From: a virus | Strand: one strand, 5' to 3' | Virus record (IMG/VR): IMGVR_UViG_3300020312_000002 | Span: 1-34,105 of that record | DNA length: 34,105 nucleotides | Shown here: piece by piece, positions 1,178-24,031 of the stretch | How the letters are laid out: every line of letters starts with the position of its first letter | Position numbering within the stretch: the first letter of the stretch is position 1 | The notes under the pieces: generated by a model | What the model was told of the DNA's origin: nothing | Database searches by the model: none | The model's input: the letters and a program-made list of their open reading frames with translations, nothing else | Program-made: the position numbers and the translations under genes

Positions 1178-1203
1178 GACCGATTTTGACTTTGTCATAC
1201 GTT
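1178..1203 (+). promoter_or_regulatory. Putative phage-sigma late promoter P3 (GACCGA-N16-CGTT)
   Basis: GACCGA (1178-1183), 16 bases, then CGTT (1200-1203), in the largest gap of the head operon, 24 bases before the scaffold ATG at 1228. The same two hexamer/tetramer elements at the same spacing occur at 24006-24031 and 19776-19801. The layout resembles ECF-type promoters (-35 box, about 16-nt spacer, CGTT-type -10). It would drive the scaffold, capsid and tail-tube genes at high level. The assignment to the sigma-like protein at 19578-20156 is an inference. Confidence 0.6.
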
Positions 1204-1227
1204 ATATATATATAATATTTTATACAA

Positions 1228-1848
1228 ATGAAAGCTACAGAAATACTTACCGAAATTAAAAAGGTTCTAGGAATAGAACTAACAGAAGAAAAGGTTGTAT
1301 TGGCTACTATGAAGCTCGATAATGGGACTGAAATTGAGGCTGAAAGCTTTGAGGCAAATCAAGAGATATTTATCGTTGGTGAAGGTGAGGAAAAGATAGC
1401 CCTCCCTATTGGTGAATATACTCTCGAGGACTCGAGGATTTTAAGTGTTAAAGAAGAAGGGATCATTGCTGAGATTAAAGAAGCTGGTTCTGAAGAAGAA
1501 GCGTCTCCTGAAGAAGAAGAAGATGTGGAAGCTAAAGAAGAAGAGCAATCTGAAGCTGCTGTTAAATCAGCAGAAACAACTCATAAAGTAGTTTATGCTA
1601 CTAAAGAAGAAGTTGATAAATTAAGCTCTAGCATTGCTGAGTTAAAAGCTATGATAGAAACTAAAAAAGAAGAACTAGCTGAAGAAGCTAAGACTGAAAA
1701 AGTAGAAGAAGTTGAGATGACTGCTGAAGTTGTCGAGCCTATTGCTCACAATCCAGAAGCTGCTACTGAAAGTAAAGTAGACATCCCTTATTTTCAAACT
1801 GCTCACTCAAGTTTAGTTCATCAAATGATTAACCAATACAATAACTAA
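1228..1848 (+). CDS. Putative capsid scaffold / capsid assembly protein
   Basis: 206 aa. Residues 1-80 form a small beta-rich domain (alternating acidic strands, EIFIVGEGEEKIALPIGEY). Residues 85-115 are almost entirely Glu, Ala, Ser and Pro, and 120-170 predict a coiled coil (KEEVDKLSSSIAELKAMIE). An acidic, helical, low-complexity protein encoded directly between protease and major capsid protein is the classical position and composition of a scaffold. I infer that it nucleates prohead assembly and is removed by the upstream protease. It is the first gene after the putative late promoter at 1178, consistent with high expression. Confidence 0.7.
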   Translation: MKATEILTEIKKVLGIELTEEKVVLATMKLDNGTEIEAESFEANQEIFIVGEGEEKIALPIGEYTLEDSRILSVKEEGIIAEIKEAGSEEEASPEEEEDVEAKEEEQSEAAVKSAETTHKVVYATKEEVDKLSSSIAELKAMIETKKEELAEEAKTEKVEEVEMTAEVVEPIAHNPEAATESKVDIPYFQTAHSSLVHQMINQYNN

Positions 1849-1873
1849 AAATTAAAACTAAAATTTAAAAACT

Positions 1874-2806
1874 ATGGCTACTACACATACTATCACTGAT
1901 AATACGTACAGCGGCAAGAAGGCGGCAGGCTATCTGTCAGCGGCGTTGCTCAGTGGAAAAACTTTAAGTGCTGGAGTTGTTGACATTAGAGATAATATTC
2001 AAGGAAAAGAAGTTATCCAAGTCATAAATTCTGACGCTAATTTAATCAAAAATGCAACGTGTGATTTTACTGACACTGGTACTTTAACGACTACCGAAAT
2101 TGTTCTTCAGCCTGAGGAATTTCAGGTAAATTTACAATTTTGCGCTAAGGAATATAGAACAACATGGGAATCGCTTCAAATGAAGGGTGTAAAAAGTGGA
2201 ATTGCTAAAGACTTAAGTGATTTTATCTTAGAGCATGTTGTACAAAAAGTTGCTGCTAACATGGAGACTAACTTTTGGCAAGGAGCTACAGCTACAGAAG
2301 GAATGACTAATGGAGTTTCTGTTTTAGCTGGTGCTGACTCAGATGTCGTTGATGTTACTGGAACTACACTGACTTCAGCGAATATCGTCGCTGAGATGGG
2401 CAAGTTAATTACAGACTGTCCTAGCACAATCTATGGAAAAGACGACTTATACTTATATGCAAGTACTGAGGCTTTTAAATCTTATGTTTCTGCACTTGGC
2501 GGCTTTGCGGCTAGTGGACTTGGAGCTGCTGGTATAAAAGATGAAGGTCCGACTTGGTTTAGAGGACAACAAGAGCTTTATTTTGAAGGTGTTAAAGTAT
2601 TCCATGCACCGGGTATGGCTGCAAATGAAATGATTTTAACTAGAAAGTCAAATTTAATATTTAGCACTAGCTTGTTCTCAGAGAATAATCAAGCGAGCAT
2701 CATAGATATGTCTAAATATGATGGTTCATTGAACACTAGAGTGATCCTTAGAGGTTCTCAGGGTGTAAATATAGCTAATGGAGCAGAGATAGTATACTAT
2801 ACATAA
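1874..2806 (+). CDS. Major capsid protein
   Basis: 310 aa, following the protease and scaffold genes. It resembles the major capsid proteins of Bacteroidota siphophages: an N-terminal arm (SGKKAAGYLSAALLSGKTL), a long helix around 115-135 (FILEHVVQKVAANMETNFW), a Gly/Ala-rich domain, and a C-terminal beta-rich region ending GVNIANGAEIVYYT. Length suits an HK97-fold coat protein, though I cannot verify the fold from sequence alone. Start chosen at ATGGCT after the A-rich leader AAATTTAAAAACT, a leader repeated before other structural genes here (for example 3451). Confidence 0.85.
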   Translation: MATTHTITDNTYSGKKAAGYLSAALLSGKTLSAGVVDIRDNIQGKEVIQVINSDANLIKNATCDFTDTGTLTTTEIVLQPEEFQVNLQFCAKEYRTTWESLQMKGVKSGIAKDLSDFILEHVVQKVAANMETNFWQGATATEGMTNGVSVLAGADSDVVDVTGTTLTSANIVAEMGKLITDCPSTIYGKDDLYLYASTEAFKSYVSALGGFAASGLGAAGIKDEGPTWFRGQQELYFEGVKVFHAPGMAANEMILTRKSNLIFSTSLFSENNQASIIDMSKYDGSLNTRVILRGSQGVNIANGAEIVYYT

Positions 2807-2836
2807 TATTTGTCTAACTAATTAAAAATCAATCGT

Positions 2837-3385
2837 ATGGCGTGTTTAACAACGAGAGGAAGAGCAATCAACTGTAAAGATGTCCGCGGTGGATTGAATA
2901 GGTTATGGATAACTTCAACAGACTTAGTCACTACATTAAATAGTGATGAAGAAATTGATGACTGTACTTCAACTGCTGTCTTTTTCCAGTATGATTTAAA
3001 GAACAGTGGTAATACTATGGAAACAACTGCCAATGTCTCTAGGGATAATGGCACTACATATTTTACAACTGTATTAAATATTGTACTACCAAAATTAACT
3101 AAAGAAGACCATAAGGAGCTTAAGCTGATAAGTTACGGAAAGCCGCATCTTATCGTAGAAGACCGAAACTCTAACTTTTGGTTATTAGGTAGAGAGCATG
3201 GCTGTGAATTAACAAGTGCAAGTATATCGAGTGGCGGCGCAATGGGAGATGCGTCCCAGTATACACTTGAATTTACAGCAGAAGAGGTTAGCCCACCAAG
3301 TTTTATTAATGGAGCTACTTCATCTAATCCAGCGGCTGGCTGGTCTAGTTGTACTGAAACAATTACTGTAGGTACAAACAGCTAG
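2837..3385 (+). CDS. Putative major tail tube protein
   Basis: 182 aa. The N-terminus MACLTTRGRAINCKDVRGGL and the region IVEDRNSNFWLLGREHG...GDASQYTLEFTAEE (about 106-150) match a Bacteroidota phage family that I interpret as tail tube proteins, which combine an all-beta core with a terminal strand ending before a flexible tail (Ser/Asn/Gly-rich here). It is encoded directly after the capsid gene and followed by a stable hairpin, as expected for an abundant virion protein. An alternative is a capsid decoration protein. Mass spectrometry of virions would settle it. Confidence 0.55.
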   Translation: MACLTTRGRAINCKDVRGGLNRLWITSTDLVTTLNSDEEIDDCTSTAVFFQYDLKNSGNTMETTANVSRDNGTTYFTTVLNIVLPKLTKEDHKELKLISYGKPHLIVEDRNSNFWLLGREHGCELTSASISSGGAMGDASQYTLEFTAEEVSPPSFINGATSSNPAAGWSSCTETITVGTNS

Positions 3386-3397
3386 AAATACTTTGTG

Positions 3398-3440
3398 TTT
3401 TTTGTTAAGGGGTGTGTCTTAATTGCCACCCCTCAAAAAA
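3398..3440 (+). repeat. Stable hairpin after capsid/tail-tube genes
   Basis: The arms AGGGGTG (3408-3414) and CACCCCT (3427-3433) pair perfectly around a 12-nt loop. They are flanked by a T6 run (3398-3403) and an A6 run (3435-3440) that could extend the stem. There is no T-run after the 3' arm, so it is not a canonical + strand intrinsic terminator. It may stabilise the 3' end of the abundant capsid/tail-tube mRNA or act as a partial terminator in either direction. Confidence 0.6.
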
Positions 3441-3458
3441 CATAATAAATTAAAAACT

Positions 3459-3638
3459 ATGGCAAAAAACAAAACATCAAAAGATAAAAGTATAAAGCGT
3501 AAAGCTTATAATGAAGATGAATGGAAAACAATCACTTCAGCACAATTTTTAAAAGAAGTAGAGCTAGAAGATGCTCTGGAAATTTTAAAAAAGACAAAAA
3601 GAGTTAAATCTAGTTTAGCAACTTATATAATAGAATAA
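3459..3638 (+). CDS. Small charged protein of unknown function (59 aa)
   Basis: MAKNKTSKDKSIKRKAYNE start: an N-terminal Lys-rich segment followed by a helical acidic/Leu-rich part (FLKEVELEDALEILKK). I start it at ATG 3459 because this follows the same leader (AATTAAAAACT) as the capsid gene. A longer in-frame start at 3423 would place the hairpin 3' arm inside the coding region. It sits between tail tube and portal. No family recognised; a small virion or assembly factor is likely from context. Confidence 0.65.
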   Translation: MAKNKTSKDKSIKRKAYNEDEWKTITSAQFLKEVELEDALEILKKTKRVKSSLATYIIE

Positions 3639-3641
3639 AGG

Positions 3642-4007
3642 ATGACTATTTTAGACAGAGGTCAATCAAGTCACACCTTAAACTTTATTCCAAAAGTATA
3701 CAGCCCTACTGGATCAGCTATTTTTAAAGTTTTAATAAAAAACGAACAGCAAAATACAGAAGTTTATAATCAAACAGTAAGCTCATTTACAGAATTGAAG
3801 TATTATCACACTCATACTGCTACATTTGGTTTTGATGCAAACAAAGACCAAACTTATACACTAGAGATCACAAATACTGCTACAAATGCTGTTTTATATA
3901 GAGATAAATTATTTGTTACTGACCAAAGTGCTTCAACTTACTCAATTAATACTGGTAAGTACACTTTTGAAACAAGTAGCACAAATGACTACCTAGTTTA
4001 TGAATAA
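3642..4007 (+). CDS. Unknown beta-rich structural protein (121 aa)
   Basis: The sequence is dominated by alternating hydrophobic and polar residues and aromatic strands (FKVLIKNEQQN, YTLEITNTATNAVLYRDKLFV), suggesting one immunoglobulin-like or jelly-roll beta domain. There is no signal peptide or membrane segment. It starts 3 nt after the previous stop, and its last 8 nt overlap the portal gene, so it is translated as part of the head operon. Related short proteins occur beside portal genes in Bacteroidota phages; function not known to me. Confidence 0.7.
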   Translation: MTILDRGQSSHTLNFIPKVYSPTGSAIFKVLIKNEQQNTEVYNQTVSSFTELKYYHTHTATFGFDANKDQTYTLEITNTATNAVLYRDKLFVTDQSASTYSINTGKYTFETSSTNDYLVYE

Positions 4008-5778
4008 TAGCGACTTTCATATAGTAAATTTAGCAGCTTATCAAACTCCAGAGATTATTGAGGATGTAAATGAGAGTTTTATCTCTTGGGGAGAGGATAA
4101 TTCATTTTATAACGAGTTAATAGAGGTTTATTTAAACAGCCCTACCTCCCACTCTATTATTAATGGAGTTGTTAATCAAATAGTAGGCAAAGGGTTCTCA
4201 GCATTAGACTCAAATAGAAAACCAGATGAATATGCTAAGTTTATACAGCTTTTTAAGAAAAAAGACCTTAAAAGAATAGCTTTAGACCTTAAATTACTAG
4301 GTGAGGCTGCTTTTCAAGTAACTTATAACAATAAAAAGGTTGTAGAGGTGTCTCATTTTAATAGAGAGACTCTAAGAGCTGAAAAATGTGATAAAAAAGG
4401 CAAAATTAGAGCTTATTATTACCATCCTAAGTGGTCTGACTATAAAAAAGGGGATAAACTAACTAGAATTCCAGTTTTTGGTTCTGGCGCTTCTAATGAA
4501 TTATATATAATTAGAAGGCATATACCTTCAATGCACTATTATAACGTACCAGACTGGGTTGGATCGTTGAATTACGGCAAATTAGAGTGTTCTATAAGCG
4601 AATACCTAGTAAATGAGGTTGATAATTCCTTTTCAGGAACGAAATTAGTGAGTTTCACGAATGGCGTGCCTACTCCTGAGAAACAAAACATGATAAAACA
4701 GCAAATTTTAGACAAACTAACAGGAGCAAATGGTGAAAAAGTCATAGTTAGTTTCTCAGATAGTGCTGAAAACAAGACTACAATAGAGGATATTTCAGTG
4801 AGTGATGCAGCAGATGTATACCAGTATATCAGTGAAGAGTGTACTAGAAAGCTATTACTGGGTCATAGGATCACTTCACCTTTATTAGTTGGTATAAGAG
4901 ACGGTAATCAAGGGCTAGGATCAAATGCAGAAGAGATAAAAAATGCACAAAATTTATTTGAAAATTTGATTATAAAGCCCTACCAGAGTGATATTATAGA
5001 TGCTATTGATGATATACTTGCTGTGAATGGTATCGCTCTGAAAGTATATGTACAAACACTAACTCCTATTGAGTTTACAGACCTAGAAAATGCTGTAACT
5101 AATGAACAAAGAGAAGAGGAGACTGGAGAAAAGCTTTCAAGTCAAAAAGAAAAGACTATAGAGGAGACAATGTTTGATACTGTCAATGCATTAGGAGGAG
5201 ACAATGAGGATACTCTTTTAGATTTTGGTTATGAGCTAGTAGATGAGAGAAAAGTAGATTATGAAAAAGAAGAAGAGCTAGATAATCAAATAAAATTAGC
5301 CTCAGCTCCTAAAGGTAGAGGTTCTGCTTCTAGTATATTAGATGGTAAAACTAAAAAAGGTCAAAGATATTTAGTAAGATACCAGTATGCACCTCTGTCT
5401 GTAAGTAATGACAGTAGAGAGTTTTGCAAAGCTATGGTAAGAGCTAAAAGAGTTTATAGAAAAGAGGACTTAGATAAGGATTTTAAAGGTAATAGTGATT
5501 TTGCTCCTAAAGGTGAGACAGACTATAATTTGTTTAAATACAAAGGAGGAGTTAATTGCCATCATTTTTGGCAAAGAAAAACATATTTGTTAAAAGATGA
5601 CTCTAATATAGACCCTAACAATCCTAATGCTTCTAAATTTTTAGTCTATAAAACAACTATAGATAAAGAAGGAATTAAACTACCTACAATAGGTAAAGGT
5701 AAAACTGAAGAAGAAGCTATCGTTAGTGAAAAAATGATAGACAGAGATGACAAAGGGCGTAAAACTAAAAAGAAATAA
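4000..5778 (+). CDS. Portal protein with conserved C-terminal extension
   Basis: 592 aa. Residues 1-400 carry portal features: SHSIINGVVNQIVGKGF (about 49-65), a beta-rich central part, ISEECTRKLLLGHRITSPLLVGI (about 277-300) and a helical stretch LFENLIIKPYQSDIIDAIDDIL. This forms the dodecameric DNA gate and connector at the capsid vertex. Residues about 430-592 form a distinct domain with RYQYAPLS, SREFCKAM, VYRKEDL and GGVNCHHFWQRKTYL motifs, reminiscent of the Cys/His ends of MuF-like head proteins; that comparison is inference. Its position after the capsid and tail tube genes, rather than next to the terminase, is unusual. Confidence 0.82.
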   Translation: MNNSDFHIVNLAAYQTPEIIEDVNESFISWGEDNSFYNELIEVYLNSPTSHSIINGVVNQIVGKGFSALDSNRKPDEYAKFIQLFKKKDLKRIALDLKLLGEAAFQVTYNNKKVVEVSHFNRETLRAEKCDKKGKIRAYYYHPKWSDYKKGDKLTRIPVFGSGASNELYIIRRHIPSMHYYNVPDWVGSLNYGKLECSISEYLVNEVDNSFSGTKLVSFTNGVPTPEKQNMIKQQILDKLTGANGEKVIVSFSDSAENKTTIEDISVSDAADVYQYISEECTRKLLLGHRITSPLLVGIRDGNQGLGSNAEEIKNAQNLFENLIIKPYQSDIIDAIDDILAVNGIALKVYVQTLTPIEFTDLENAVTNEQREEETGEKLSSQKEKTIEETMFDTVNALGGDNEDTLLDFGYELVDERKVDYEKEEELDNQIKLASAPKGRGSASSILDGKTKKGQRYLVRYQYAPLSVSNDSREFCKAMVRAKRVYRKEDLDKDFKGNSDFAPKGETDYNLFKYKGGVNCHHFWQRKTYLLKDDSNIDPNNPNASKFLVYKTTIDKEGIKLPTIGKGKTEEEAIVSEKMIDRDDKGRKTKKK

Positions 5779-5781
5779 GAT

Positions 5782-6285
5782 ATGGCAGATGTATTATTTT
5801 GTACAAAGAATGACATAGTTAGAAAAAGTCAAAACCTTGATGGTAATATTGACGCAGATCTAATAATTCCGAGCTTACATGTATGTCAAACTCAAAATTT
5901 GAGAGGTATTATAGGTACTGATCTATACAATAAACTAACAAGTGATATAACAGGAGACTCTTTGGCAAACCCTTATCTGTCTCTTCTTAATAATTATATA
6001 AAACCCATATTAATCCACTTAACACTTGCTGAATTTTTCAAAGGAGCTAGTATTAAGGTTACAAATAAAGGGGTTTATAAACATACTTCAGAAAATGCTA
6101 CAGAAGCCACCTCTGAAGAGATAAAAGATTTGATCCAAATGGAAAAAGACAGAGCTGAAAGCTACACACAAAGGTTATTAGACCACATGGCTTTTAATTC
6201 TAATACTTATCCAGAATGGACATCAAATAGTAATGAGGATGTAAGTCCTCAGTATCAATCATTTAACACTGACTGGGTATTATGA
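5782..6285 (+). CDS. Putative head-tail connector (DUF6712-like)
   Basis: 167 aa, mostly helical. It begins with a segment of the kind CTKNDIVRKSQNLDGNID, followed by LRGIIGTDLYNKL (about 41-53) and a helix IKPILIHLTLAEFF. This pattern matches head-completion/adaptor proteins of Bacteroidota phages (DUF6712 type) that dock beneath the portal. Position directly after the portal gene (3 nt apart) supports this. The last codons overlap the next start (ATGA). Confidence 0.65.
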   Translation: MADVLFCTKNDIVRKSQNLDGNIDADLIIPSLHVCQTQNLRGIIGTDLYNKLTSDITGDSLANPYLSLLNNYIKPILIHLTLAEFFKGASIKVTNKGVYKHTSENATEATSEEIKDLIQMEKDRAESYTQRLLDHMAFNSNTYPEWTSNSNEDVSPQYQSFNTDWVL

Positions 6286-6449
6286 GCTTTGGAGAAATAT
6301 ATAGCGAATCGTGGTTTGGTCAAGCAAATGATGCTGGTGGATGGGGGTCAATATACCCTTTTGATGCAGATGGGTCTTTACTATTAGTTGATACAACTAG
6401 TATTACTTCAGATAGTACAGCAATTACTGCAGATGCAACTCAATATTAA
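6282..6449 (+). CDS. Small acidic virion-associated protein (55 aa)
   Basis: The ATG overlaps the TGA of the connector gene (ATGA at 6282-6285), indicating translational coupling. It begins MSFGEIYSESWFGQAND and is rich in Gly, Ser, Thr and Asp (VDTTSITSDSTAITADATQ). Similar short proteins with an MSFG-IY start lie next to connector and fibre genes in other Bacteroidota phages, so it is probably a real minor structural gene. No function known. Confidence 0.7.
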   Translation: MSFGEIYSESWFGQANDAGGWGSIYPFDADGSLLLVDTTSITSDSTAITADATQY

Positions 6450-6478
6450 TTAATAAATAATAATAAAAATATAATAAA

Positions 6479-7435
6479 ATGGCACAACAAAATTTAAATA
6501 CTGGAAGCTCAGCGAACGATGGGACTGGCGACTCGCTTCGAGCAGCTATGCTAAAAATTCAGTCCAACTTTGATGAACTCTACGGAGATGAAACTACAGG
6601 TGAGGTTACGTCAATAACTGCGACAGCTCCTATTGAAAGGGATCAGGCAGTTGGCGTTGTTACTATATCTCTTGCAGATGATGGTGTTACTTATGCTAAA
6701 ATGCAAGACACTACAACTGACAATAGAGTTTTAGGAGCTACAACTGCTGGTGAAATTTCAGAGGTTCAAGTGGCTACAGATATGATAGCAGATGACGCTG
6801 TTACTGAAGCTAAAATAAATGTTTCAGGAACTGGAACTGCTGGGCAAAATTTGTCTTCAGATGGGTCAGGTGGTTTTACTTGGACTAATGAAGTTGATAC
6901 AACTTACACTGCTGGTGATGGTCTTACTTTAACTGGCACTGATATTGACTTAGATGCTGCTTTAACTACAGTTACTTCAATTTATAATACAGGGCTAAAA
7001 GTTGGAAGAGACTCTGGAGGTGACTGGATTGACTTTGGCACTGATAATCAGATTGACTTTTATGTAGATAATACAAATGACATGAGACTAGAATCTGACG
7101 GAGATTTGCATGTAGAAGGTGATGTAATTGCAGCTTCAACTACAATCTCTTCAGATGAAAAATTAAAAGAAAATATTGAAGAGTACTCAGATGCTTTAGA
7201 CAAAATAAAACAATTAAAAGGAGTTTCTTTTGATTGGAAAAAAGATGGTTCAAAATCTGGGGGTGTAATTGCTCAAGATGTTCAAAAGGTGCTTCCAGAG
7301 TTAGTTGAAAATGTAAAAGACCTAAATGGAGATGACTCTCATTTAGCTGTTAACTATAATGGTTTAATAGGGTTGCTTTTACAATCAATAAAAGAACTAT
7401 CTGACAAAGTAGATAATTGTAATAATTGTAAATAA
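6479..7435 (+). CDS. Tail fibre/spike with C-terminal S74 chaperone domain
   Basis: 318 aa. The start (NTGSSANDGTGDSLRAAM, then NFDELYG) is a common fibre N-terminal motif that probably attaches to the baseplate. Residues 40-215 are Thr/Asp/Gly-rich repeats typical of fibre shafts (LTGTDIDLDAALT, DNTNDMRLESDGDLHVEGD). Residues 222-318 form an intramolecular chaperone of the endosialidase/Peptidase_S74 type: SSDEKLKENI (224-233) with the Ser-Asp self-cleavage region, GVSFDWK, GVIAQDVQKVLPELV and a terminal coiled coil. The chaperone trimerises the shaft and then cuts itself off. It ends in a Cys pair motif CNNC. Confidence 0.88.
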   Translation: MAQQNLNTGSSANDGTGDSLRAAMLKIQSNFDELYGDETTGEVTSITATAPIERDQAVGVVTISLADDGVTYAKMQDTTTDNRVLGATTAGEISEVQVATDMIADDAVTEAKINVSGTGTAGQNLSSDGSGGFTWTNEVDTTYTAGDGLTLTGTDIDLDAALTTVTSIYNTGLKVGRDSGGDWIDFGTDNQIDFYVDNTNDMRLESDGDLHVEGDVIAASTTISSDEKLKENIEEYSDALDKIKQLKGVSFDWKKDGSKSGGVIAQDVQKVLPELVENVKDLNGDDSHLAVNYNGLIGLLLQSIKELSDKVDNCNNCK

Positions 7436-7444
7436 TAATAAATC

Positions 7445-8488
7445 ATGGCAGTAACTTCAAGTGGCGTAATAAAATTAATTGGTGATGTTAATAATGAGAT
7501 TAACGGAAATATAACTGATACAGATGTATCATTAACTACATTATCAACTGAGGCTGGGCTTTCTGCACCTCATGGATTACAGGAATTTTATGGCTATTCA
7601 GCTATTGACGCACCTACAGTTACATGCCAAGCGGCTTCAAGTGTTGCTGGAACTAGTATGACCTTAAATGGGAATGTAACAGCTACTGGAGGTGAGAATG
7701 TTAGTCATGGTTTTTATATTGGAACTAACGCAAGTTATGCAAGTAATACCAAAGTAACAGTTGCAACTGGTCAGGGAACTGGTGCTTATACTTATAATGC
7801 TACTTCATTAACTGCTGCTACAACTTATTACATTAATGCATGGGCTTCAAACTCTGGTGGTGAAACTGTTAGTAGTCAAGTTACTCAAATGACTTCATTT
7901 AGTGCTAGTTATGGAATTGCAGATAATAGAAGTAAAATAGAAAAACAAGACCATTTAGGCTATCCAATGTTAAAGACAGAATATTACGACCCTTCTACTA
8001 CAAGTTTCATTGAAATAGATTATTCTGAATCTACAGGACCGATATACTCAACTAGTTATGATAATTATTTTAACAATGTTTCAGGTTATTATGGCATAAA
8101 TGGCTGTAGAGGTAGAAGATATTCTGGTTATGCTTCAGGTGAAAATTGGTATAACATTTGGGACGATACTGCTTCAACTTGTTACCCTAAAATGCATGAA
8201 GCTACTAATACAATTACCAGATATACTGCTGGCTCTACGTTTAACTGGTGGTATGGTGTGCAATTTAACGGTACAAGTGATGACCACAAATTGCATGTAT
8301 ATACTAACACAGCTCCGGGATATGACATGAGTGGCTTCCCAAGTTCATTAAATGCTACTGCTAATGGTGGAGGAACTGCGGCTGTTACTTATTCTTCGCA
8401 AGCCTATCATGTTCACATAACACATACAGCAGCGGCTACTATGACAAGTGGGGGCGCTTATAATTGTTCATTGACAGTTGAATATTAA
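7445..8488 (+). CDS. Probable receptor-binding / tail tip protein with FN3-like domain
   Basis: 347 aa. Residues 1-52 (SGVIKLIGDVNNEIN..., LSAPHGLQEFYGYS) resemble a short phage tail-protein N-terminal module. Residues 53-150 look like a fibronectin type III or similar beta sandwich (TYYINAWASNSGGETVSSQV). The remaining 200 residues are rich in Tyr, Trp, Gly and Thr (WWYGVQFNGTSDDHKLHVY), as in carbohydrate-binding tips. Immediately downstream of the S74 fibre, it is a good candidate host-receptor adhesin. Start follows the leader AATAATAAATC. Confidence 0.6.
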   Translation: MAVTSSGVIKLIGDVNNEINGNITDTDVSLTTLSTEAGLSAPHGLQEFYGYSAIDAPTVTCQAASSVAGTSMTLNGNVTATGGENVSHGFYIGTNASYASNTKVTVATGQGTGAYTYNATSLTAATTYYINAWASNSGGETVSSQVTQMTSFSASYGIADNRSKIEKQDHLGYPMLKTEYYDPSTTSFIEIDYSESTGPIYSTSYDNYFNNVSGYYGINGCRGRRYSGYASGENWYNIWDDTASTCYPKMHEATNTITRYTAGSTFNWWYGVQFNGTSDDHKLHVYTNTAPGYDMSGFPSSLNATANGGGTAAVTYSSQAYHVHITHTAAATMTSGGAYNCSLTVEY

Positions 8489-8508
8489 TAAAATTAAATA
8501 AAAATAAA

Positions 8509-8970: not shown

Positions 8971-8976
8971 TAAATA

Positions 8977-9120
8977 ATGGATTTAAGGATTTACATGGCT
9001 TCAGGTTTTGCTTTGCTATTTAGCTTGATGGAAGAGGCTAATGTAATCCTTCAGTTTATTGTTCTGGTTTTAACTATAGTTTATTTATTAATGAATATTA
9101 AAAAAAGAAAAAATGAATAA
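8977..9120 (+). CDS. Small membrane protein (47 aa)
   Basis: MDLRIYMASGFALLFSLMEE followed by a clear hydrophobic segment (VILQFIVLVLTIVYLLM, about 23-39) and a positively charged end IKKRKNE. Either one or two membrane passes are possible (the first at 7-18 is weak). It overlaps the next gene by 8 nt. Its place in a run of three membrane peptides ahead of the endolysin makes a role in lysis plausible but unproved. Confidence 0.7.
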   Translation: MDLRIYMASGFALLFSLMEEANVILQFIVLVLTIVYLLMNIKKRKNE

Positions 9121-17746: not shown

Positions 17747-17752
17747 ATTATT

Positions 17753-18187
17753 ATGATAGACACTATAGATTTAAAAAACAAAGTTTACTATGCAATCATG
17801 GATAAACTTCCAAAGAAAAGAAAAACTGTATATCAGTTAATAGAACACAATCAACCTTGTACAGCTAAAGAAATATCTGACAAGTACTACATTCCTATTA
17901 ATGAAGTGCATCCAAGAATAACAGAATTAAGAAAGTCAGGATATATAACAACTGCTGGAACTAAAAAAAGTAACAGAACAAAACACCAAAATACCTTATA
18001 TAGATTAGCTTCAGAAGAAGAGAGAGATCAATACATAAAGTCTACACTTACAGACATGAAGTCTGAAATAGACAAACTAACTGAAGATTATATATTAAAT
18101 GAATTATCCTCTTATGGAAAAAAAGAGTTAAGAAAAAGAATAAATAAACTAGAATGGCAATATAAAAAATTACAAAATGAAGAATAA
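17753..18187 (+). CDS. Winged-helix DNA-binding protein (144 aa)
   Basis: Residues 22-80 (KTVYQLIEHNQPCTAKEISDKYYIPINEVHPRITELRKSGYI in landmarks TAKEIS, HPRITEL, RKSGYI) form a typical winged helix of MarR/ArsR-like topology. The C-terminal 60 residues are helical and charged. It overlaps the SSB-like gene by 11 nt. It may regulate the early operon or assist replication; the family is not specific enough to say. Confidence 0.7.
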   Translation: MIDTIDLKNKVYYAIMDKLPKKRKTVYQLIEHNQPCTAKEISDKYYIPINEVHPRITELRKSGYITTAGTKKSNRTKHQNTLYRLASEEERDQYIKSTLTDMKSEIDKLTEDYILNELSSYGKKELRKRINKLEWQYKKLQNEE

Positions 18188-18581
18188 TATTTTAGAATTA
18201 AGCAGTCAAGAATTAACAGGACAGATAATACACATAGGAAAAGTTGAGCATTATGGGAATCAAGACAGACCTTTTACAAAACAGAAGTTTGTAGTAAGAA
18301 CTTATCCTAATCAAAATAATTATACAGAAAGTATAACCTTTGAATTGCACAAAGACAGTATAGCAGAATTAACAAGTTATGCTGTTGGAGCTGTTGTTAC
18401 TGTAACTTATTTTTTAAAAGGAAAAGAATGGATAAGCCCAGAAGGTGAGACTAAATATTTTAATTCTTTAAAAGCAATGGGTATATCTACTTATGTAGGT
18501 AATACAGAATGGGCTGAAATTGAAGATACTAATTTAAGTGGTCTGAATAAAGAAGAAAAGAGTGAAGATGTCCCATTTTAA
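18177..18581 (+). CDS. SSB-like OB-fold protein (DUF3127-type)
   Basis: 134 aa. Strands LTGQIIHIGKVEHYG, KFVVRTYPNQ and VTVTYFLKGKEW fit the OB fold of DUF3127 proteins. The C-terminus ends in acidic residues and DVPF, the hallmark of SSB tails that recruit repair and replication proteins (DDIPF type). It probably protects single-stranded DNA and partners the ERF annealing protein. Last gene before the terminator at 18643. Confidence 0.8.
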   Translation: MKNNILELSSQELTGQIIHIGKVEHYGNQDRPFTKQKFVVRTYPNQNNYTESITFELHKDSIAELTSYAVGAVVTVTYFLKGKEWISPEGETKYFNSLKAMGISTYVGNTEWAEIEDTNLSGLNKEEKSEDVPF

Positions 18582-18586
18582 TAACA

Positions 18587-18610
18587 TAGGTGTGACCTAC
18601 CTTAAAAGGT
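18587..18610 (+). repeat. Two abutting small dyads after the SSB-like gene
   Basis: TAGGT-GTG-ACCTA (18587-18599) and ACCTT-AA-AAGGT (18599-18610) lie end to end, starting 6 nt after the SSB-like stop codon. The first forms a 5-bp hairpin with a 3-nt loop. They may be a regulatory protein site or mRNA 3' structure upstream of the main terminator. Confidence 0.4.
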
Positions 18611-18642
18611 TAATTAATGTTTTTTCATATTGTTTGTTTAAG

Positions 18643-18700
18643 ACCCCCTCGCAACTCATCATAGTTATTATAGATTTACTTAACCAGAGGGGGTTTTTTT
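18643..18700 (+). terminator. Rho-independent terminator of the early operon
   Basis: ACCCCCTC (18643-18650) pairs with GAGGGGGT (18687-18694), and the stem runs into seven T residues (18694-18700). It is the only clear intrinsic terminator I found on the + strand. The loop is unusually long at 36 nt. It ends the transcript from PR; the next gene starts only 14 nt later, so expression of 18715 onward needs read-through, antitermination or a promoter I did not find. Confidence 0.85.
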
Positions 18701-18714
18701 ATTATCTTTAAATT

Positions 18715-18933
18715 ATGAAAGACAAATACATAGACAAAGACACAATAGTAACTGGGATATATTGCAAGAAATGTAAAAAATCATTTAGTGTAAAAGCCTT
18801 TGACCATTTAGGTATGAATAAAGAGAAAGTAGCTTATGGATGCCCAACTTGTCAAGATCATATTAGACCACATAAAAGCTGGCTAGCTAATCCAGTTCCT
18901 TATGAAACAGATGATTATAAAATTATAGGATGA
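18715..18933 (+). CDS. Zinc-ribbon protein (72 aa)
   Basis: Two Cys pairs, CKKC (17-20) and CPTC (43-46), are separated by 22 residues, forming a zinc-ribbon-like fold. It starts with MKDKYIDKD and continues in a His/Lys-rich stretch (QDHIRPHKSW). It follows the early terminator and overlaps the next gene by 4 nt. Possibly a transcription or recombination accessory protein; function unknown. Confidence 0.65.
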   Translation: MKDKYIDKDTIVTGIYCKKCKKSFSVKAFDHLGMNKEKVAYGCPTCQDHIRPHKSWLANPVPYETDDYKIIG

Positions 18934-19046
18934 GTATATTTGACCATTCACATTTAAGCCCTGAAGTAAGAAAGTTACTAGAGGATAAGCTTAAAAAAGA
19001 ATTTAACAAAGAAAAGTATAAGAAGCCCAAAAAGAAGAAAAAATAG
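18930..19046 (+). CDS. Very small Lys-rich protein (38 aa)
   Basis: The ATG overlaps the preceding TGA (ATGA). MSIFDHSHLSPEVRKLLEDK is followed by a strongly basic end (KYKKPKKKKK). Coupling and a normal acidic/hydrophobic N-terminal half support it, but short Lys-rich ORFs arise easily in AT-rich DNA, so confidence is moderate. Confidence 0.5.
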   Translation: MSIFDHSHLSPEVRKLLEDKLKKEFNKEKYKKPKKKKK

Positions 19047-19096
19047 ACTTCATTCTTTTTTGTTAATAAAACACCCTTATTGTTAAAAGTATAACC

Positions 19097-19132
19097 TTGA
19101 CTGGAACGTAAATTTCTTTATAGTTTTACGTT
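19097..19132 (+). promoter_or_regulatory. Dyad-covered promoter for ninG/sigma genes
   Basis: TTG (19097-19099), 21 nt, TAGTTTTA (19121-19128) matches TTG/TAnnTTTG with one mismatch. A perfect dyad AACGTAAA-N12-TTTACGTT (19105-19112 and 19125-19132) spans the spacer and covers the -7 element, the classic position for an operator. It would control ninG and the sigma-like gene, and hence the late programme. The binding protein is unknown. The dyad could instead act as an RNA hairpin if transcription starts upstream. Confidence 0.5.
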
Positions 19133-19139
19133 ACCTCTT

Positions 19140-19159
19140 TGCCATATATCAGTATGGCA
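19140..19159 (+). promoter_or_regulatory. Hairpin burying the ninG start codon
   Basis: TGCCATA (19140-19146) and TATGGCA (19153-19159) are perfectly complementary with a 6-nt loop, and the 3' arm contains the ATG at 19154. In the mRNA the start codon would be base-paired, so translation may need unfolding by ribosomes, RNA remodelling or a protein. Confidence 0.5.
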
Positions 19160-19576
19160 ATAAATAAGACATTAAAAAAGAAAACACTATTGCAACTTAA
19201 AGCAATAGCAACTAAGCATTTCAATAAGTTTATAAGAGATAGGGATAAGGATAAGCCTTGTATCTCATGTGGAAAACATACAACCCTTCAGGCTGGTCAT
19301 TTTTATTCTGCTGGCAAACATTCTTCAGTAAGGTTTAATGAGGATAATGTGCATGGGCAGTGCGTATCCTGCAATTATTTCAAAAGCGGAGACCTTTTAA
19401 ATTATAGAACTAACCTAATAGAAAAAATAGGAGTAGATAGATTTGAGAAACTAACACTTAATGTTATGCAAACTAAACAAACAGGCTACAAATTTGATAG
19501 GTTCTTTTTAATTGAGGTTATAGAAAAGTACAAAGCACTTAATAAACTTCAAATACTATTACCATTAATTTTTTAA
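19154..19576 (+). CDS. ninG: NinG-like recombination nuclease (Rap family)
   Basis: 140 aa from ATG 19154 (an in-frame TTG at 19139 is less likely). The family pattern is clear: an N-terminal basic helix (TLLQLKAIATKHFNKFIRDRD), PCISCG (35-40) and QCVSCN (69-74) zinc-binding pairs, AGHFYSAGKHSSVRFNEDN (47-65) and a C-terminal YR..L..KIG block. NinG/Rap proteins of lambdoid phages recognise branched recombination intermediates and belong to the HNH-like zinc fold. Likely partner of ERF. It is followed after 1 nt by the sigma-like gene. Confidence 0.85.
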   Translation: MAINKTLKKKTLLQLKAIATKHFNKFIRDRDKDKPCISCGKHTTLQAGHFYSAGKHSSVRFNEDNVHGQCVSCNYFKSGDLLNYRTNLIEKIGVDRFEKLTLNVMQTKQTGYKFDRFFLIEVIEKYKALNKLQILLPLIF

Positions 19577-19577
19577 A

Positions 19578-20156
19578 ATGACAAGAAAAGAGGCAATGTA
19601 TTATATAGCTAGTAAATACAATAAAATAAAAGAGATTGTTAAAGGTATTGAAACTAAATACTTTTCAAATGAAAAAGGGATGTATCATGAGGATATAACT
19701 CAGGATATGTTTCTTAAAATCCATGAAGAGCTGCAAAAAAAACAAGAGGACTCTGGAGAGATCAACAAATTCATAGACCGATACTTTAATCCTAAATCGT
19801 TTAATATATATACAATGGTCAAAAACTTGTTTATAGATAACCTCAGAAGAGAGAACAAATATACAAGATTTGACTATAGTAAATTAAGTAAAAGAGAAAA
19901 GAAAACACTTATAGAACAGGCTAAAGATGCAGAGCTAGAAAGTGCTAAAAGTATTGAAGAAAAGATAGATGAGTATGTAGATACCTTTTACTGGTTTGAT
20001 AAAAAGCTCTTCAATCTTTATAGATATGAATTTAAAGCCCATCCTACAGAGATGAGCAAAAACACAAAGCTTTCAGTTTCTACAATATATAGAACTGTTA
20101 AAAGATGTAAGGTGAGAATAAATGAAAAACTAAGAAAACAATATTATGAAAAGTAA
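19578..20156 (+). CDS. ECF-like RNA polymerase sigma factor (late regulator candidate)
   Basis: 192 aa. Residues 35-52 (YHEDITQDMFLKIHEELQ) and 76-93 (NIYTMVKNLFIDNLRREN) match sigma region 2 (core binding and -10 recognition). Residues 140-186 (FDKKLFNLYRYEF, EMSKNTKLSVSTIYRTVKRC) match region 4 with its HTH for the -35 box. There is no region 1.1 or 3, as in ECF sigma factors. Encoded just before the late genes, it is the obvious candidate to read the GACCGA-N16-CGTT sites at 1178, 19776 and 24006. One of these lies inside its own gene. Overlaps the next gene by 11 nt. Confidence 0.75.
   Translation: MTRKEAMYYIASKYNKIKEIVKGIETKYFSNEKGMYHEDITQDMFLKIHEELQKKQEDSGEINKFIDRYFNPKSFNIYTMVKNLFIDNLRRENKYTRFDYSKLSKREKKTLIEQAKDAELESAKSIEEKIDEYVDTFYWFDKKLFNLYRYEFKAHPTEMSKNTKLSVSTIYRTVKRCKVRINEKLRKQYYEK
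19776..19801 (+). promoter_or_regulatory. Putative phage-sigma late promoter P1 (inside the sigma gene)
   Basis: GACCGA (19776-19781), 16 nt, CGTT (19798-19801): exact match in sequence and spacing to 1178 and 24006. It lies within sigma codons 67-75. It would start the late transcript into 20146 onward. The next in-frame ATG (19815, Met80) is 13 nt downstream of CGTT, so a shortened sigma starting inside region 2 could also be made. Confidence 0.55.
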
Positions 20157-20502
20157 AGGACTTGGAGACACGATAGAGAAAATAACAAAAGCCACTGGCA
20201 TTAAAAAAGTAGTTGATACAATCTCTGAAGTTACTGGAAAAGATTGTGGCTGTGATAGTAGAAAAAAAGCTCTTAATAAGCTCTGGACATATAAAGGGAG
20301 GCTTGGACAAGATGACTTTGAATACTTAGAGCATTTTTTTGAGAATTATAATGGCAATAGGTTAAAGGATAATGAACAGAGAGATAGGCTATATGTAATA
20401 AGTAATACTGTTTTTAATAGAACAGACAAGCCTACAAGCTGCTCATCATGTTTAAGAGAATTGGTTGAGAATCTTAGAAAAGAATACCAGAGATATCTAT
20501 GA
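20146..20502 (+). CDS. Conserved Cys-containing phage protein (118 aa)
   Basis: It begins KGLGDTIEKITKATGIKKVVDTI, then DCGCD (33-37), a central charged part, and CSSC (98-101). The GLGDTIEKIT...GIKK start and CGCD motif are familiar from Bacteroidota phage proteins near terminase genes, but I know no function. It overlaps both neighbours (11 and 4 nt). Four or more cysteines suggest zinc binding. Confidence 0.72.
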   Translation: MKSKGLGDTIEKITKATGIKKVVDTISEVTGKDCGCDSRKKALNKLWTYKGRLGQDDFEYLEHFFENYNGNRLKDNEQRDRLYVISNTVFNRTDKPTSCSSCLRELVENLRKEYQRYL

Positions 20503-21224
20503 AAAAACTAGAGAAAATATATAAGCTTAGAAAACATCCTAAGAATCCTAGAATTATAAAAGATGCTAAGTATAAAAAGCTATTAACCTCATTAAAAGAG
20601 TTTCCAGAGATGATGGAGCAAAGACCATTAATAGTAAATAATGACTTAGAAGTTCTAGGAGGCAATATGAGACTAATTGCAGCTAGAGAATCTGGACTCA
20701 AAGAAGTGTGGATTGATAAGGTGGACTGGTCAGAGGATAAACAAAAAGAGTTTATGATAAAAGATAACTCTTCTTATGGTGAATGGGACTGGGATGTATT
20801 AGCTAATGAATGGGAAGTAGATGATCTTGAGCAGTGGGGTGTTAATGTCCCTACTATTAAAAATACTGAATTACTATCTAAGCTAGAATACAATCCAGTA
20901 TACTATGAGCCAGAAAATAATCCAGAAATAAAACTAGAGGACTGTATTGACCTAGATAAATATAATGCAAAACTCCAGGCGTTAGAGGACTTTGATTTGA
21001 CAAAGAAACAAAAGCAGCTCTTAAAAATGTTTGCCTATAGGTTTATAAAAATAGATTTTGAAAATGTAGCTAACTACTATCATTATAATGCTACTGAAAA
21101 AGAACAAAAAGCAATAGAGAGATTAAGACTGGTTTTAACAGATAATGGAATAGGCGGATTTATAGAAGATGATTTGCTACAAATAATGGGTATAACTGAA
21201 GATAATATTAAAGACAATGATTGA
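20499..21224 (+). CDS. ParB/Srx-fold protein (ParB-like nuclease domain)
   Basis: 241 aa. Residues 1-115 match the ParB N-terminal fold: LRKHPKNPRIIKDAKYKKLL (10-29), RPLIVNNDLEVLGGNMRLIAA (42-62, with the GGNMR box), and EFMIKDNSSYGEWDWDVLANEW (84-105). In phages this fold often accompanies DNA methyltransferases or base-modification enzymes and may have nuclease or CTP-dependent activity. Residues 130-241 are helical with no recognised domain. It overlaps the glycosyltransferase-like gene by 8 nt, so the two are likely functional partners. No methyltransferase is encoded here. Confidence 0.8.
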   Translation: MKKLEKIYKLRKHPKNPRIIKDAKYKKLLTSLKEFPEMMEQRPLIVNNDLEVLGGNMRLIAARESGLKEVWIDKVDWSEDKQKEFMIKDNSSYGEWDWDVLANEWEVDDLEQWGVNVPTIKNTELLSKLEYNPVYYEPENNPEIKLEDCIDLDKYNAKLQALEDFDLTKKQKQLLKMFAYRFIKIDFENVANYYHYNATEKEQKAIERLRLVLTDNGIGGFIEDDLLQIMGITEDNIKDND

Positions 21225-22116
21225 TATATTTATTCCTAGCTACCATAGACCAAAAAACATAAAGACTGCAAAGTACTTTAAAAAGCTAGGCTATGATATT
21301 GAGAAAGTCCATGTAGTTATAGATGACCAGACAGATGATACTCAAGAGTACATAAAAGAAACAGAAAAGCTAGGATGTAATCTACATATTGTAAACATGG
21401 ATGAGGCAATTAAAAAATATGATTATGTACACATCCCAAATAAAGCTAGAAGGACAGCAGGACAGTTTAGGAATCAATTTTATGACTTAGCTAAAAAAAA
21501 TGGAATAGACTTTTTTATAGTTATTGATGATGATACAAACCACTATGAGGTTAAACCCTTTGGAGTATATAAAAGGACAGCAGAATTAAAAGAAGTCAAA
21601 GAAGTTTACAAAGGTGTAAAAGAGTTTATGATTAAACACAAAATAGGATGCTTTGGATTAAGTCAAACTGGAGACATGTTTGAAGTTCCAAATCTTAAAG
21701 TACTAAGAAGTAAAGTTATGAATACAACTTTTTATAACACCAAATATATTTACAGAGGTGAAAAAGGTTTGCAGGATGAAGATACTAGTCAATTTGTAGG
21801 GATCATGAATGAAGGACTCTTTACAGGCAGTTTAGCTTCAGGACTTGTGTTAAGTCAGATGCCTTCTGCAAAACAAAAAGGAGGTTTGACAGATAGTTAT
21901 AATGAAAATGGATTACTAAGTAAGTCTCTTATAACTCCTATTCAGTTTCCAAGTGCTATTATAGCACAGAAACAAAAGAAAAATGGAGCAAGGTTACATC
22001 ATAGAATATATTATAGGTACTTAAATCCAAAATTAATAAAAGGAAAAAGAAACAATATTGGATGGGATACATACCCAGAAGATGTGCCTTTTACAAATCA
22101 ACCTAAAAGAGTATGA
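21217..22116 (+). CDS. GT-A fold glycosyltransferase-like protein (TAGT-like)
   Basis: 299 aa. It opens with a Rossmann-type start, IDIFIPSYHRPKNIKTAKYF (2-21), then VHVVIDDQTDD (31-41), RRTAGQFRN (78-86) and FFIVIDDDTN (99-108), whose Asp cluster is the metal/nucleotide-sugar DxD site of GT-A enzymes. The middle part (GLSQTGDMFEV, NEGLFTGSLASG, GGLTDSYNE) is strongly conserved-looking. The organisation recalls the TET-associated glycosyltransferases found in phage DNA-hypermodification clusters, often with ParB-fold proteins. Substrate could be a modified base, DNA or a virion protein; no hydroxylase or hydroxymethylase gene is present in this genome. Confidence 0.7.
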   Translation: MIDIFIPSYHRPKNIKTAKYFKKLGYDIEKVHVVIDDQTDDTQEYIKETEKLGCNLHIVNMDEAIKKYDYVHIPNKARRTAGQFRNQFYDLAKKNGIDFFIVIDDDTNHYEVKPFGVYKRTAELKEVKEVYKGVKEFMIKHKIGCFGLSQTGDMFEVPNLKVLRSKVMNTTFYNTKYIYRGEKGLQDEDTSQFVGIMNEGLFTGSLASGLVLSQMPSAKQKGGLTDSYNENGLLSKSLITPIQFPSAIIAQKQKKNGARLHHRIYYRYLNPKLIKGKRNNIGWDTYPEDVPFTNQPKRV

Positions 22117-22247
22117 GATGGGAATTAAATATAGGACTGTATCTAGGATTGCTCTTAGGTTTTAGAGTTTATGAGCAAGAGAATTGTACTGACTATGTAG
22201 CTTACTTCTTACTCTTTGATATTTGTTTAACAGTTTACAATAAATAA
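22113..22247 (+). CDS. Small membrane protein (44 aa)
   Basis: The ATG overlaps the previous TGA (ATGA). Two hydrophobic stretches (IGLYLGLLLGFRVY, YVAYFLLFDICLTVY) are separated by an acidic loop EQENCTD. Short proteins with a W-E-L-N-I-G-L-like start and LGFR-Y core are frequent in Bacteroidota phages. Function unknown; possibly superinfection exclusion or membrane anchoring. Confidence 0.7.
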   Translation: MRWELNIGLYLGLLLGFRVYEQENCTDYVAYFLLFDICLTVYNK

Positions 22248-22248
22248 A

Positions 22249-22425
22249 ATGGATAAAACAGACTCAAGATTAATGATTGAATATTATATGGATGTAATAG
22301 AAAACTCTAAAAATCCTAGACATGTATTATATGCTCAAAACATGCTGACTTTTCATTTAAATAAAATAGAACTAGATACAGATATGGTGAAACGAATTAA
22401 AGAGAATGCTACAAATATGGCTTAG
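22249..22425 (+). CDS. Unknown small helical protein (58 aa)
   Basis: It starts 1 nt after the previous stop. MDKTDSRLMIEYYMDVIENS is followed by KNPRHVLYAQNMLTFHLNKI and a charged helical end. All helical, moderately charged, no motif. The last gene before the terminase module; it could be an accessory packaging protein by position only. Confidence 0.6.
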   Translation: MDKTDSRLMIEYYMDVIENSKNPRHVLYAQNMLTFHLNKIELDTDMVKRIKENATNMA

Positions 22426-22428
22426 AAA

Positions 22429-22450
22429 AAAATACAGTGAAAATACAGTG
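22429..22450 (+). repeat. 11-bp tandem repeat before the terminase small subunit
   Basis: AAAATACAGTG occurs twice back to back (22429-22439 and 22440-22450), directly before the ATG at 22456. Eleven bp is close to one helical turn, so both copies face the same side of the DNA. A TerS binding (pac/cos-associated) site or an operator is possible. Confidence 0.5.
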
Positions 22451-22455
22451 AAAAA

Positions 22456-22791
22456 ATGGCAAAAGAAGATAATTTAAAATCATGGAAAAAAGGGCAATCT
22501 GGCAACCCTAAAGGTAGACCAAAAGGGGCGAGAAATTGGAGTAAGGTTTATATGGAATTACTAGAGCTAGAGAGTGAGATTATGAACCCAATTACAGGAA
22601 AAGCACAAAAAGTAAACCAATTTGAGAAAACAGTAATAGCTCAATTTAAAGAAGCTTTTAAAGGGAATGTAACAGCTCAAAATCAAATAATTGAAAGGGT
22701 GTTAGGTAAGAACAAAGAGACTATTGATATTAATGCAGACATTCCTAAAATAGATATTACAAAGCTTTTCCCACCTCCAGATGAGTATTGA
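22456..22791 (+). CDS. terS: Putative terminase small subunit (DUF5681-like)
   Basis: 111 aa. The N-terminus KSWKKGQSGNPKGRPKGARN (8-27) is the DUF5681 signature, a basic DNA-binding patch found in small terminase-like phage proteins. The middle is helical (FEKTVIAQFKEAF, AQNQIIERVLG), and the C-terminus is Pro/acidic. It overlaps the large subunit gene by 11 nt. It is expected to recognise the packaging site and hand DNA to TerL. Confidence 0.78.
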   Translation: MAKEDNLKSWKKGQSGNPKGRPKGARNWSKVYMELLELESEIMNPITGKAQKVNQFEKTVIAQFKEAFKGNVTAQNQIIERVLGKNKETIDINADIPKIDITKLFPPPDEY

Positions 22792-23998
22792 TGTAAGATT
22801 AAACCCAATTTACAAACCTCTATTTGCAAATGAGAATAGGTATTTTGTAATAACTGGAGGGAGGGGTTCTGGTAAGTCATATATGACAGGGGTCTTTTTA
22901 TTAACCTTAATGTACTGGGAAGCTGGTCATGTAATCCTCTATACTAGATATACTTTAAGAGCAGCTAGTGTTTCAATCATCCCAGAGTTTAAAGAGAAAA
23001 TAGAGCTACTAGGTTTAGAGAGTTTGTTTTATGTAACCAGAGATGAGATAGTAAATAAGGTTAATGGAAGTAAGATAATATTTAGAGGGATCAAAACCTC
23101 TTCAGGAGACCAAACAGCAAACCTTAAATCTTTACAAGGTGTAACTACTTGGTGTATGGAAGAAGCTGAAGAAATAGATGAGGAATCTTTTGATAAAATA
23201 GACTTATCAGTAAGAGAAAAGAATAAGCAAAACAGAGTGATCCTTTTACTTAATCCAAGTACTAAAGAGCATTTTATATATGGTAGGTTTTATGAAGACA
23301 AAGGAGTACAAGCTGGAAGTAACTTAACCAAAGGTGATACTACATACATCCATACTACTTATTTAGATAACATAGAAAACCTCTCTGAAAGTTATGTTAA
23401 ACAGATTGAGGATATGAAAGCTAGAAGACCTTTAAGATATAAGTCTGTAATAGAAGGTAACTGGCTTGAAAAAGCAGAGGGTGTTATATTCACTAACTGG
23501 AAACTAGGTAAGTTTAAAGAAGTATCTAAGGCAGTGTTTGGCGCAGATTTTGGTTTTGCCTCAGATAGTAATACTTTAGTGAAAACCTCAATAGACAAAG
23601 ACAGGAAAATAATCTATGTTAAACTCTGTTTCTATTTACCATCTTTAACTACTTCTGACCTTAGAGGACTGTATAAAAAACATGCTGGAGACTCTCTAAT
23701 TGTAGCAGACTCAGCAGAGCCTAGATTAATACATGAACTTAAATCTACATGTAATATAATTCCATCAATAAAAGGTCAAGGGAGTATTACTTATGGAATC
23801 TCTTTACTACAAGATTATGACCTAATCATAGATGAAGAGGATAGCACTCACCTAGTTAAAGAATTAAACAATTACAGTTGGCTTGAAAAGAAGTCAAAAA
23901 CACCAATAGACAAATATAATCATGCAATAGATGCTTTAAGATATGCTATAAGCTATCAATTAAAGAACCCTAATGCTGGTGAATATCATTTAATGTAA
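22781..23998 (+). CDS. terL: Terminase large subunit
   Basis: 405 aa, a normal length for a compact Terminase_3-type protein. The ATPase domain has Walker A GGRGSGKS (26-33), an adenine-binding region before it (YFVITG), and Walker B VTTWCMEEAEE (121-131). The RNase-H-like nuclease has Asp256 (FGADFGFA), Asp310 (LIVADSAEPRL) and Asp384 (NHAIDALRY). It drives DNA into the prohead through the portal and cuts concatemers. Downstream, 56 bp later, is a chaperone gene rather than the portal, an unusual order. Confidence 0.95.
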   Translation: MSIDVRLNPIYKPLFANENRYFVITGGRGSGKSYMTGVFLLTLMYWEAGHVILYTRYTLRAASVSIIPEFKEKIELLGLESLFYVTRDEIVNKVNGSKIIFRGIKTSSGDQTANLKSLQGVTTWCMEEAEEIDEESFDKIDLSVREKNKQNRVILLLNPSTKEHFIYGRFYEDKGVQAGSNLTKGDTTYIHTTYLDNIENLSESYVKQIEDMKARRPLRYKSVIEGNWLEKAEGVIFTNWKLGKFKEVSKAVFGADFGFASDSNTLVKTSIDKDRKIIYVKLCFYLPSLTTSDLRGLYKKHAGDSLIVADSAEPRLIHELKSTCNIIPSIKGQGSITYGISLLQDYDLIIDEEDSTHLVKELNNYSWLEKKSKTPIDKYNHAIDALRYAISYQLKNPNAGEYHLM

Positions 23999-24005
23999 AA
24001 TAGTA

Positions 24006-24031
24006 GACCGAATATATAAAGATGAATCGTT
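24006..24031 (+). promoter_or_regulatory. Putative phage-sigma late promoter P2
   Basis: GACCGA (24006-24011), 16 nt, CGTT (24028-24031), located in the 56-bp gap after terL and 23 nt before the ATG at 24055. Same sequence and spacing as the sites at 1178 and 19776. It would start the tail-gene transcript. Beyond CGTT it also resembles the 1178 site (both continue into ATAA.ATTTTA). Confidence 0.6.

Follow-up and report, generated by a model that had tools for sequence, protein, structure and literature searches.

Does a phage genome carry its own switch from early to late transcription, and where in the genome is that switch written? The question is raised by a virus record of 34,105 nt (IMG/VR IMGVR_UViG_3300020312_000002, positions 1 to 34,105, analyzed at full length and here called the window), which carries a gene for a protein resembling extracytoplasmic function (ECF) sigma factors and three copies of a bipartite motif, GACCGA-N16-CGTT, one of them inside that gene. 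We consider it likely, with a probability of about 0.88, that the protein is an ECF-type phage sigma factor that drives three late promoters, here named P1, P2 and P3, of which P1 lies within the sigma gene itself.

A preliminary description of this DNA had reported three exact matches to the motif, all on the + strand, and had expected well under one by chance. Both points hold: the matches lie where it had placed them and on that strand only (Table 1), and 100 dinucleotide shuffles gave 0 matches. A weight matrix trained on the sites of other clades, with the window and its closest relatives left out, finds exactly three sites in the window (30.5-35.6 bits), the fourth-best scoring 9.6 and the maximum in random genomes being 6.8. 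Together, the shuffles and this leave-clade-out matrix rule out a chance origin of the three sites. Each promoter has one bipartite site, free of repeats and followed 3' of CGTT by AT-rich sequence, and shows the layout of an ECF promoter: two parts, a spacer of ~16-17 nt and a short -10. As in phage late sigma systems, this phage-specific motif precedes late gene blocks and is always oriented with the genes. The CGTT of P3 stops 24 nt short of the ATG at 1228 and that of P2 23 nt short of the ATG at 24055, exactly as first described. The names then given to these two genes, scaffold and tail chaperone, are supported by gene position and confirmed by no family model. Their sites had also been placed in the largest gaps of the late region, which is true of 1029-1228 (198 nt, the largest) but not of 23998-24055 (56 nt), which ranks eighth. 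The middle site had been listed without remark on its location: it lies within the sigma gene, over codons 67-75.

The three positions are shared by related phages. Two scans with the sigma gene gave 40 viral loci, hence 41 sigma genes with the window, and a scan with the major capsid protein (MCP) gave 80 loci. The internal site is present in 40 of the 41 sigma genes; in the exception, L018/G015, NinG and the small protein encoded just after the sigma gene, p20146, are kept (68% and 66% identity), the sigma has diverged (39%) and the internal site is absent. The motif is found in the gap after TerL at 27/27 loci containing that gap, and in the protease-scaffold gap of all eight genomes containing it. 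These intergenic sites persist although the surrounding spacers diverge among relatives, and the distance between the two motif elements is 16 nt at every site but one (15 nt). Sigma-bearing relatives without the motif before capsid or tail genes would have spoken against a late switch, as the preliminary description had pointed out; all relatives that are long enough carry it, in the same places. In a further scan that made no use of the sigma gene, we searched 2.9 million viral contigs for TAGACCGA-N16-CGTT-N2-6-ATATA and recovered 31 stretches. Twenty-nine belong to the window's phage group and hold the motif either within the sigma gene or ahead of the gene that follows TerL; the remaining two represent a single unrelated sequence. 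The motif was not found in MCP relatives outside the window's clade.

The chaperone and scaffold gaps of two relatives, G011 and G012 (L122-L125), carry identical P2 and P3 26-mers, spacer included (GACCCAAATCGATTTCCTGATTCGTT), which suggests gene conversion between promoters. Beyond the window's clade, sigma-like genes with 22-31% identity occur in MCP relatives devoid of GACCGA-CGTT (L102-L107, corresponding to G039, G030, G037, G031, G023 and G022). Neither pairwise alignment nor a CGTW scan revealed the motif in the distant genomes G022, G023, G030, G037 and G039. In G031 (L116/L117), another distant relative, CGTTATAT stands exactly 8 nt before four late-gene ATGs (3615, 7606, 10315 and 27211), with no clear -35.

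A site inside a coding sequence may be conserved for its peptide or for its DNA, and codon usage over P1 separates the two. In the sigma reading frame, GAC CGA specifies D67-R68, while residues 74-75 are covered by xCG TTx or xCG TAy. Of 16 representatives, 14 have Ser, Thr, Ala or Pro at residue 74, with an xCG codon in every case, whereas in the rest of these genes only 19 of 390 such codons end in CG. Multiplied together, the synonymous frequencies give 9e-17, a value that serves as a guide only, as the lineages are not fully independent. The Asp67 codon is GAC in 14/15 (background 36%) and the Arg68 codon is CGN in 15/15 (background 17%). A maximum-likelihood tree requires seven changes of residue 74. 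As judged from codon usage, the internal site is under selection at the DNA level.

The -10 element changes in concert across sites. In G020, CGTA replaces CGTT at all three sites (with a spacer of 15 at the scaffold site), L136, L140 and L142 have CGTA at both of their sites, L133 has TGTT at both, and L147 shows a C-to-T change at both. The sigmas that go with CGTA form a single branch (91/91 support) and have lost one residue at loop position 76, in addition to an N83Q substitution. In Mycobacterium tuberculosis (Mtb) SigH, position -9 is read by a specificity loop made up of residues 72-79, and position -10 by N88 (PMC6411747). Aligned through an NLxIDxLRR-type motif, D67-S74 of the window sigma fall on SigH 72-79, and N83 falls on N88. 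On this mapping, the clade with a changed -9-reading loop is therefore the one in which the last base of the -10 goes from T to A, and P1 would encode the very loop with which the sigma reads the -10. The motif tracks the sigma rather than neighboring genes, since p20146 of G020 is 79% identical to that of the window while its -10 differs, and since the internal site is gone in L018/G015, where the sigma has diverged. It is possible, if somewhat doubtful, that this arrangement eases the evolution of specificity: with promoter and reader in the same nucleotides, one mutation can alter site and specificity together, and a lineage may reach new codes (CGTT, CGTA, TGTT), the other promoters following.

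The preliminary description had assigned sigma regions 2 and 4 to the predicted protein, and both its sequence and its fold score as ECF-type. TIGR02937 (sigma70-ECF) matches residues 18-185 (E 3.6e-9), over regions 2 and 4, the Bacteroidetes model TIGR02985 matches the same residues (E 1.5e-8), and Pfam Sigma70_r2 is detected in 7/16 members of the sigma family. A PDB search by sequence found no match, so we turned to fold comparison. The AlphaFold model (mean predicted local distance difference test score, pLDDT, 72.7) has helical domains at about 1-94 and 126-184 joined by a low-confidence linker, and Foldseek against the PDB ranks AlgU, Mtb SigH and E. coli sigma-E as the top folds, with probabilities up to 0.99. 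The 192-aa product thus resembles ECF sigmas, which combine sigma2 and sigma4 with a linker in ~170-200 aa, in both size and fold. No relatives were found in bacterial genomes (search with A1). A region-4-only protein made from an internal ATG after P1 was considered and rejected, the ATG not being conserved.

Several observations weigh against this interpretation. Both TIGR models score the sigma under their curated cut-offs (36.5 bits against 42.9 for TIGR02937), and the Foldseek E-values are only about 0.01, on a middling structure model. The mapping onto SigH rests on a short shared motif, which we used after a profile comparison with E. coli sigma-E had proved too weak to map residues. 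Among the -10 elements, those of L147 are unequal (TGTC at one site, TGTT at the other) and those of L146 are discordant, with CGTT in the sigma gene and CGTA before the tail gene. L146 is 97% identical to L154 around the sigma gene and 83% identical to L140, of the CGTA clade, from the tail promoter onward; these identities mark the locus as either a mosaic of two clades or a chimera arising in assembly.

We infer the activity of the sigma, its start sites, the timing and the operon extents as follows. Host sigma-A, acting from a host-type promoter at about 13665, would transcribe the early operon, whose last gene, at the place taken by Q in lambdoid phages, would yield the sigma. The sigma would divert the core RNA polymerase of the host to three late promoters with GACCGA as -35 and CGTT as -10: P1 would start the packaging operon (p20146-ParB-TerS-TerL), P2 the tail operon and P3 the capsid-lysis operon. 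P1 would overlap the codons of the -10-reading loop, so that promoter and reader share nucleotides. The preliminary description had likewise proposed a late switch in which a phage sigma redirects the host polymerase, and the motifs at the same places in relatives, the co-variation of -10 and sigma and the ECF-type protein support it.

Packaging is most likely what P1 drives. It could instead be mainly an autoregulatory brake, with the holoenzyme bound at P1 blocking polymerases that arrive from the early promoter and so limiting the sigma, and with P2 and P3 as the true late promoters. P1 is strongly conserved, and since it sits within the sigma gene, past the start of that gene, a transcript from it cannot give full-length sigma; feedback through P1 would therefore be negative, by occlusion or collision. 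We nonetheless regard the brake as an unlikely main function, because in the cultured Nonlabens phage P12024L the first late site lies beyond the sigma gene and immediately ahead of the p20146 homologue, which points to the packaging operon. The two roles do not exclude each other.

P12024L (L156, NC_018272.1) and P12024S (NC_018271) are cultured flavobacterial phages of Nonlabens (Persicivirga) with a gene order similar to that of the window; upstream of the terminase, each has a gene with Sigma-70 region 2 (gp35 and gp33, respectively). The present analysis also found repeated CGTT-ending sites before their late genes. The P12024L genome contains seven AAAACA-N15/16-CGTT sites (random mean 0.12, maximum 1). 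All lie on the + strand, and at each of them an ATG follows CGTT at a distance of 7-8 nt. Given the usual spacing from -10 to start, this suggests that the late transcripts of P12024L are leaderless. One site directly precedes gp37, identified as a p20146 homologue by tblastn in relatives; the first late promoter would therefore precede p20146 in both groups and lie within the sigma gene only in the window's group, and this site also argues for a late operon beginning at p20146 in the window. An internal site conserved in the sigma genes of both P12024 phages was not found. When contigs were scanned for the AAAACA-type motif, matches preceded P12024-type late genes wherever the downstream gene was recognized. 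P12024L is an independent case of a sigma-region gene with its own putative late sites, unlike the window in its -35, in the distance from CGTT to the ATG, in the location of the first late site and in having no annotated integrase.

Slightly less probable than the brake is that the sites bind another phage regulator (p20146, the repressor or a winged-helix protein) beside host sigma-A promoters, in the manner of the RinA/Ltr proteins. In phages of Gram-positive bacteria, these are encoded by the last early gene, before the terminase, and turn on packaging and structural genes; in phage Phi13, the repeats that Ltr binds lie at the 3' end of the Ltr gene, so that here, too, the target is inside the regulator gene (PMC13123087). 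Three separate sites close to late genes, each CGTT followed by AT-rich sequence, would fit such a scheme. However, RinA/Ltr proteins are about 130 aa long, are not sigma factors and recognize direct repeats that lie upstream of a promoter for host sigma-A (PMC13123087); the window sites show no such repeats, each being a single asymmetric 6-N16-4 element with ECF spacing that is always directed toward the genes. The co-variation of the -10 with the sigma loop also speaks against another regulator, as does the similarity of p20146 between genomes that differ in their -10. Finally, it is hardly credible that the internal match simply reflects a conserved peptide (Asp-Arg ... Ser-Phe) and that the other sites are chance or inherited boundary sequence: Asp67 and Arg68 are indeed invariant or nearly so, but xCG is kept while residue 74 varies and changes repeatedly on the tree, rare CGN codons are always used for the Arg, and the intergenic sites outlast their spacers and find no match in shuffles.

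An ECF-type phage sigma with three late promoters would be a known kind of switch, proven by experiment in phages 7-11 and phiEco32 (PMC8948821). The sigma of Salmonella phage 7-11, SaPh711_gp47, has regions 2 and 4 and recognizes bipartite late promoters, GTAAtg-(16)-aCTA, with transcription starting 6-9 nt away (PMC8948821); the 16-nt spacer and the position before late genes are shared with the window, whereas 7-11 is a large lytic podophage of Enterobacteria whose eight promoters have other elements, with none reported inside the sigma gene. PhiEco32 gp36 likewise takes host core polymerase to middle and late genes (PMC8948821, PMC4331800), but does so at a single-element promoter, tAATGTAtA, without a -35; it has no region 4 homology and works with the inhibitor gp79. 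A tblastn search of 50,697 phage records at 1e-5 gave no match to the window sigma, and no homology to gp36 or gp47 was seen; the window sigma would share a type of mechanism with these proteins rather than a close family. Lambda Q resembles the sigma in genome position, being the last early gene and following NinG, and also acts as the late switch, but as an antiterminator at one promoter with no promoter-recognition code of its own. The three separate conserved sites make a Q-type arrangement, with one late promoter for the host sigma plus antitermination, somewhat less likely.

What lends the case added interest is the putative self-embedded promoter and the natural co-variation series. In a literature search of incomplete coverage, neither such a switch in Bacteroidetes phages nor a promoter within the codons of its own reader's specificity loop turned up. 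Late-gene control in Bacteroidetes phages is little known, and the present case offers a testable switch across a broad phage group, with P12024L available as a cultured relative. The sigma loops and their matching -10 elements form a natural series, a ready-made set of data on how ECF sigmas read the -10.

Table 1. Coordinates of the sigma gene, the putative promoters and the predicted operons (window positions unless stated otherwise)
Feature	Position	Strand	Basis
ECF-type sigma factor gene, 192 aa, last of the early operon	19578..20156	+	TIGR02937, Foldseek, Pfam in relatives
P1, putative intragenic late promoter GACCGA-N16-CGTT	19776..19801	+	Site in sigma genes of relatives; DNA-level conservation
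P2, putative late promoter before the gene following TerL (ATG 24055, first described as tail chaperone)	24006..24031	+	Site in relatives containing the gap
P3, putative late promoter before the putative scaffold gene (1228)	1178..1203	+	Site in genomes containing the gap
Candidate host-type (Bacteroidetes sigma-A) early promoter TTG-N20-TATATTTG	13665..13695	+	Pattern scan; before the early operon
Early operon, last genes NinG and sigma	13784..20156	+	Open reading frame order, families
Predicted late operon 1: p20146 (small Cys-rich), ParB-like, unnamed genes, TerS (DUF5681), TerL	20146..23998	+	Gene order, families
Predicted late operon 2: tail genes to tape measure, on across the junction to 1029 (protease)	24055..34077	+	Gene order; predicted extent
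Predicted late operon 3: scaffold, MCP, portal, adaptors, tail fibre, lysis genes	1228..11376	+	Gene order; predicted extent
P12024L AAAACA-N15/16-CGTT sites (positions in NC_018272.1)	146, 2998, 5379, 22058, 24739, 25978, 27579	+	

A 55-bp direct repeat at the ends of the window (1-55 and 34051-34105) indicates that it is circular and probably a complete phage genome of about 34,050 bp. The genes run from an integrase and a divergent repressor-like gene through early genes with ERF and SSB to NinG, the sigma, p20146, a ParB-like gene, TerS (DUF5681) and TerL, followed by tail genes and, over the circular junction, by protease, scaffold, MCP, portal and lysis genes. The nearest cultured relatives of the terminase are those of P12024L and P12024S (53% identical), and from this kinship and the Bacteroidetes sigma-A type promoter candidate we infer a marine flavobacterial host. 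The pattern of that candidate has five matches in the window, of which the one listed precedes the early genes. Overlapping it and extending 3' of it, a ATGATATGTATTATG-like sequence is repeated at 13680-13735, possibly as repressor operators. Directly 5' of NinG-sigma, an inverted repeat at 19105-19132 (AACGTAAA...TTTTACGTT) overlaps a sigma-70-like match and is a possible control site for this end of the early operon.

The p20146 gene (20146-20502) encodes a small Cys-containing protein and overlaps the 3' end of the sigma gene. In nearly every genome examined, the gene for the sigma or its sigma-like counterpart is directly followed by a p20146 homologue with 41-79% identity, and this holds even for sigmas of only 22-31% identity. 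The protein may act as a sigma partner or as an anti-sigma, or be a first late protein.

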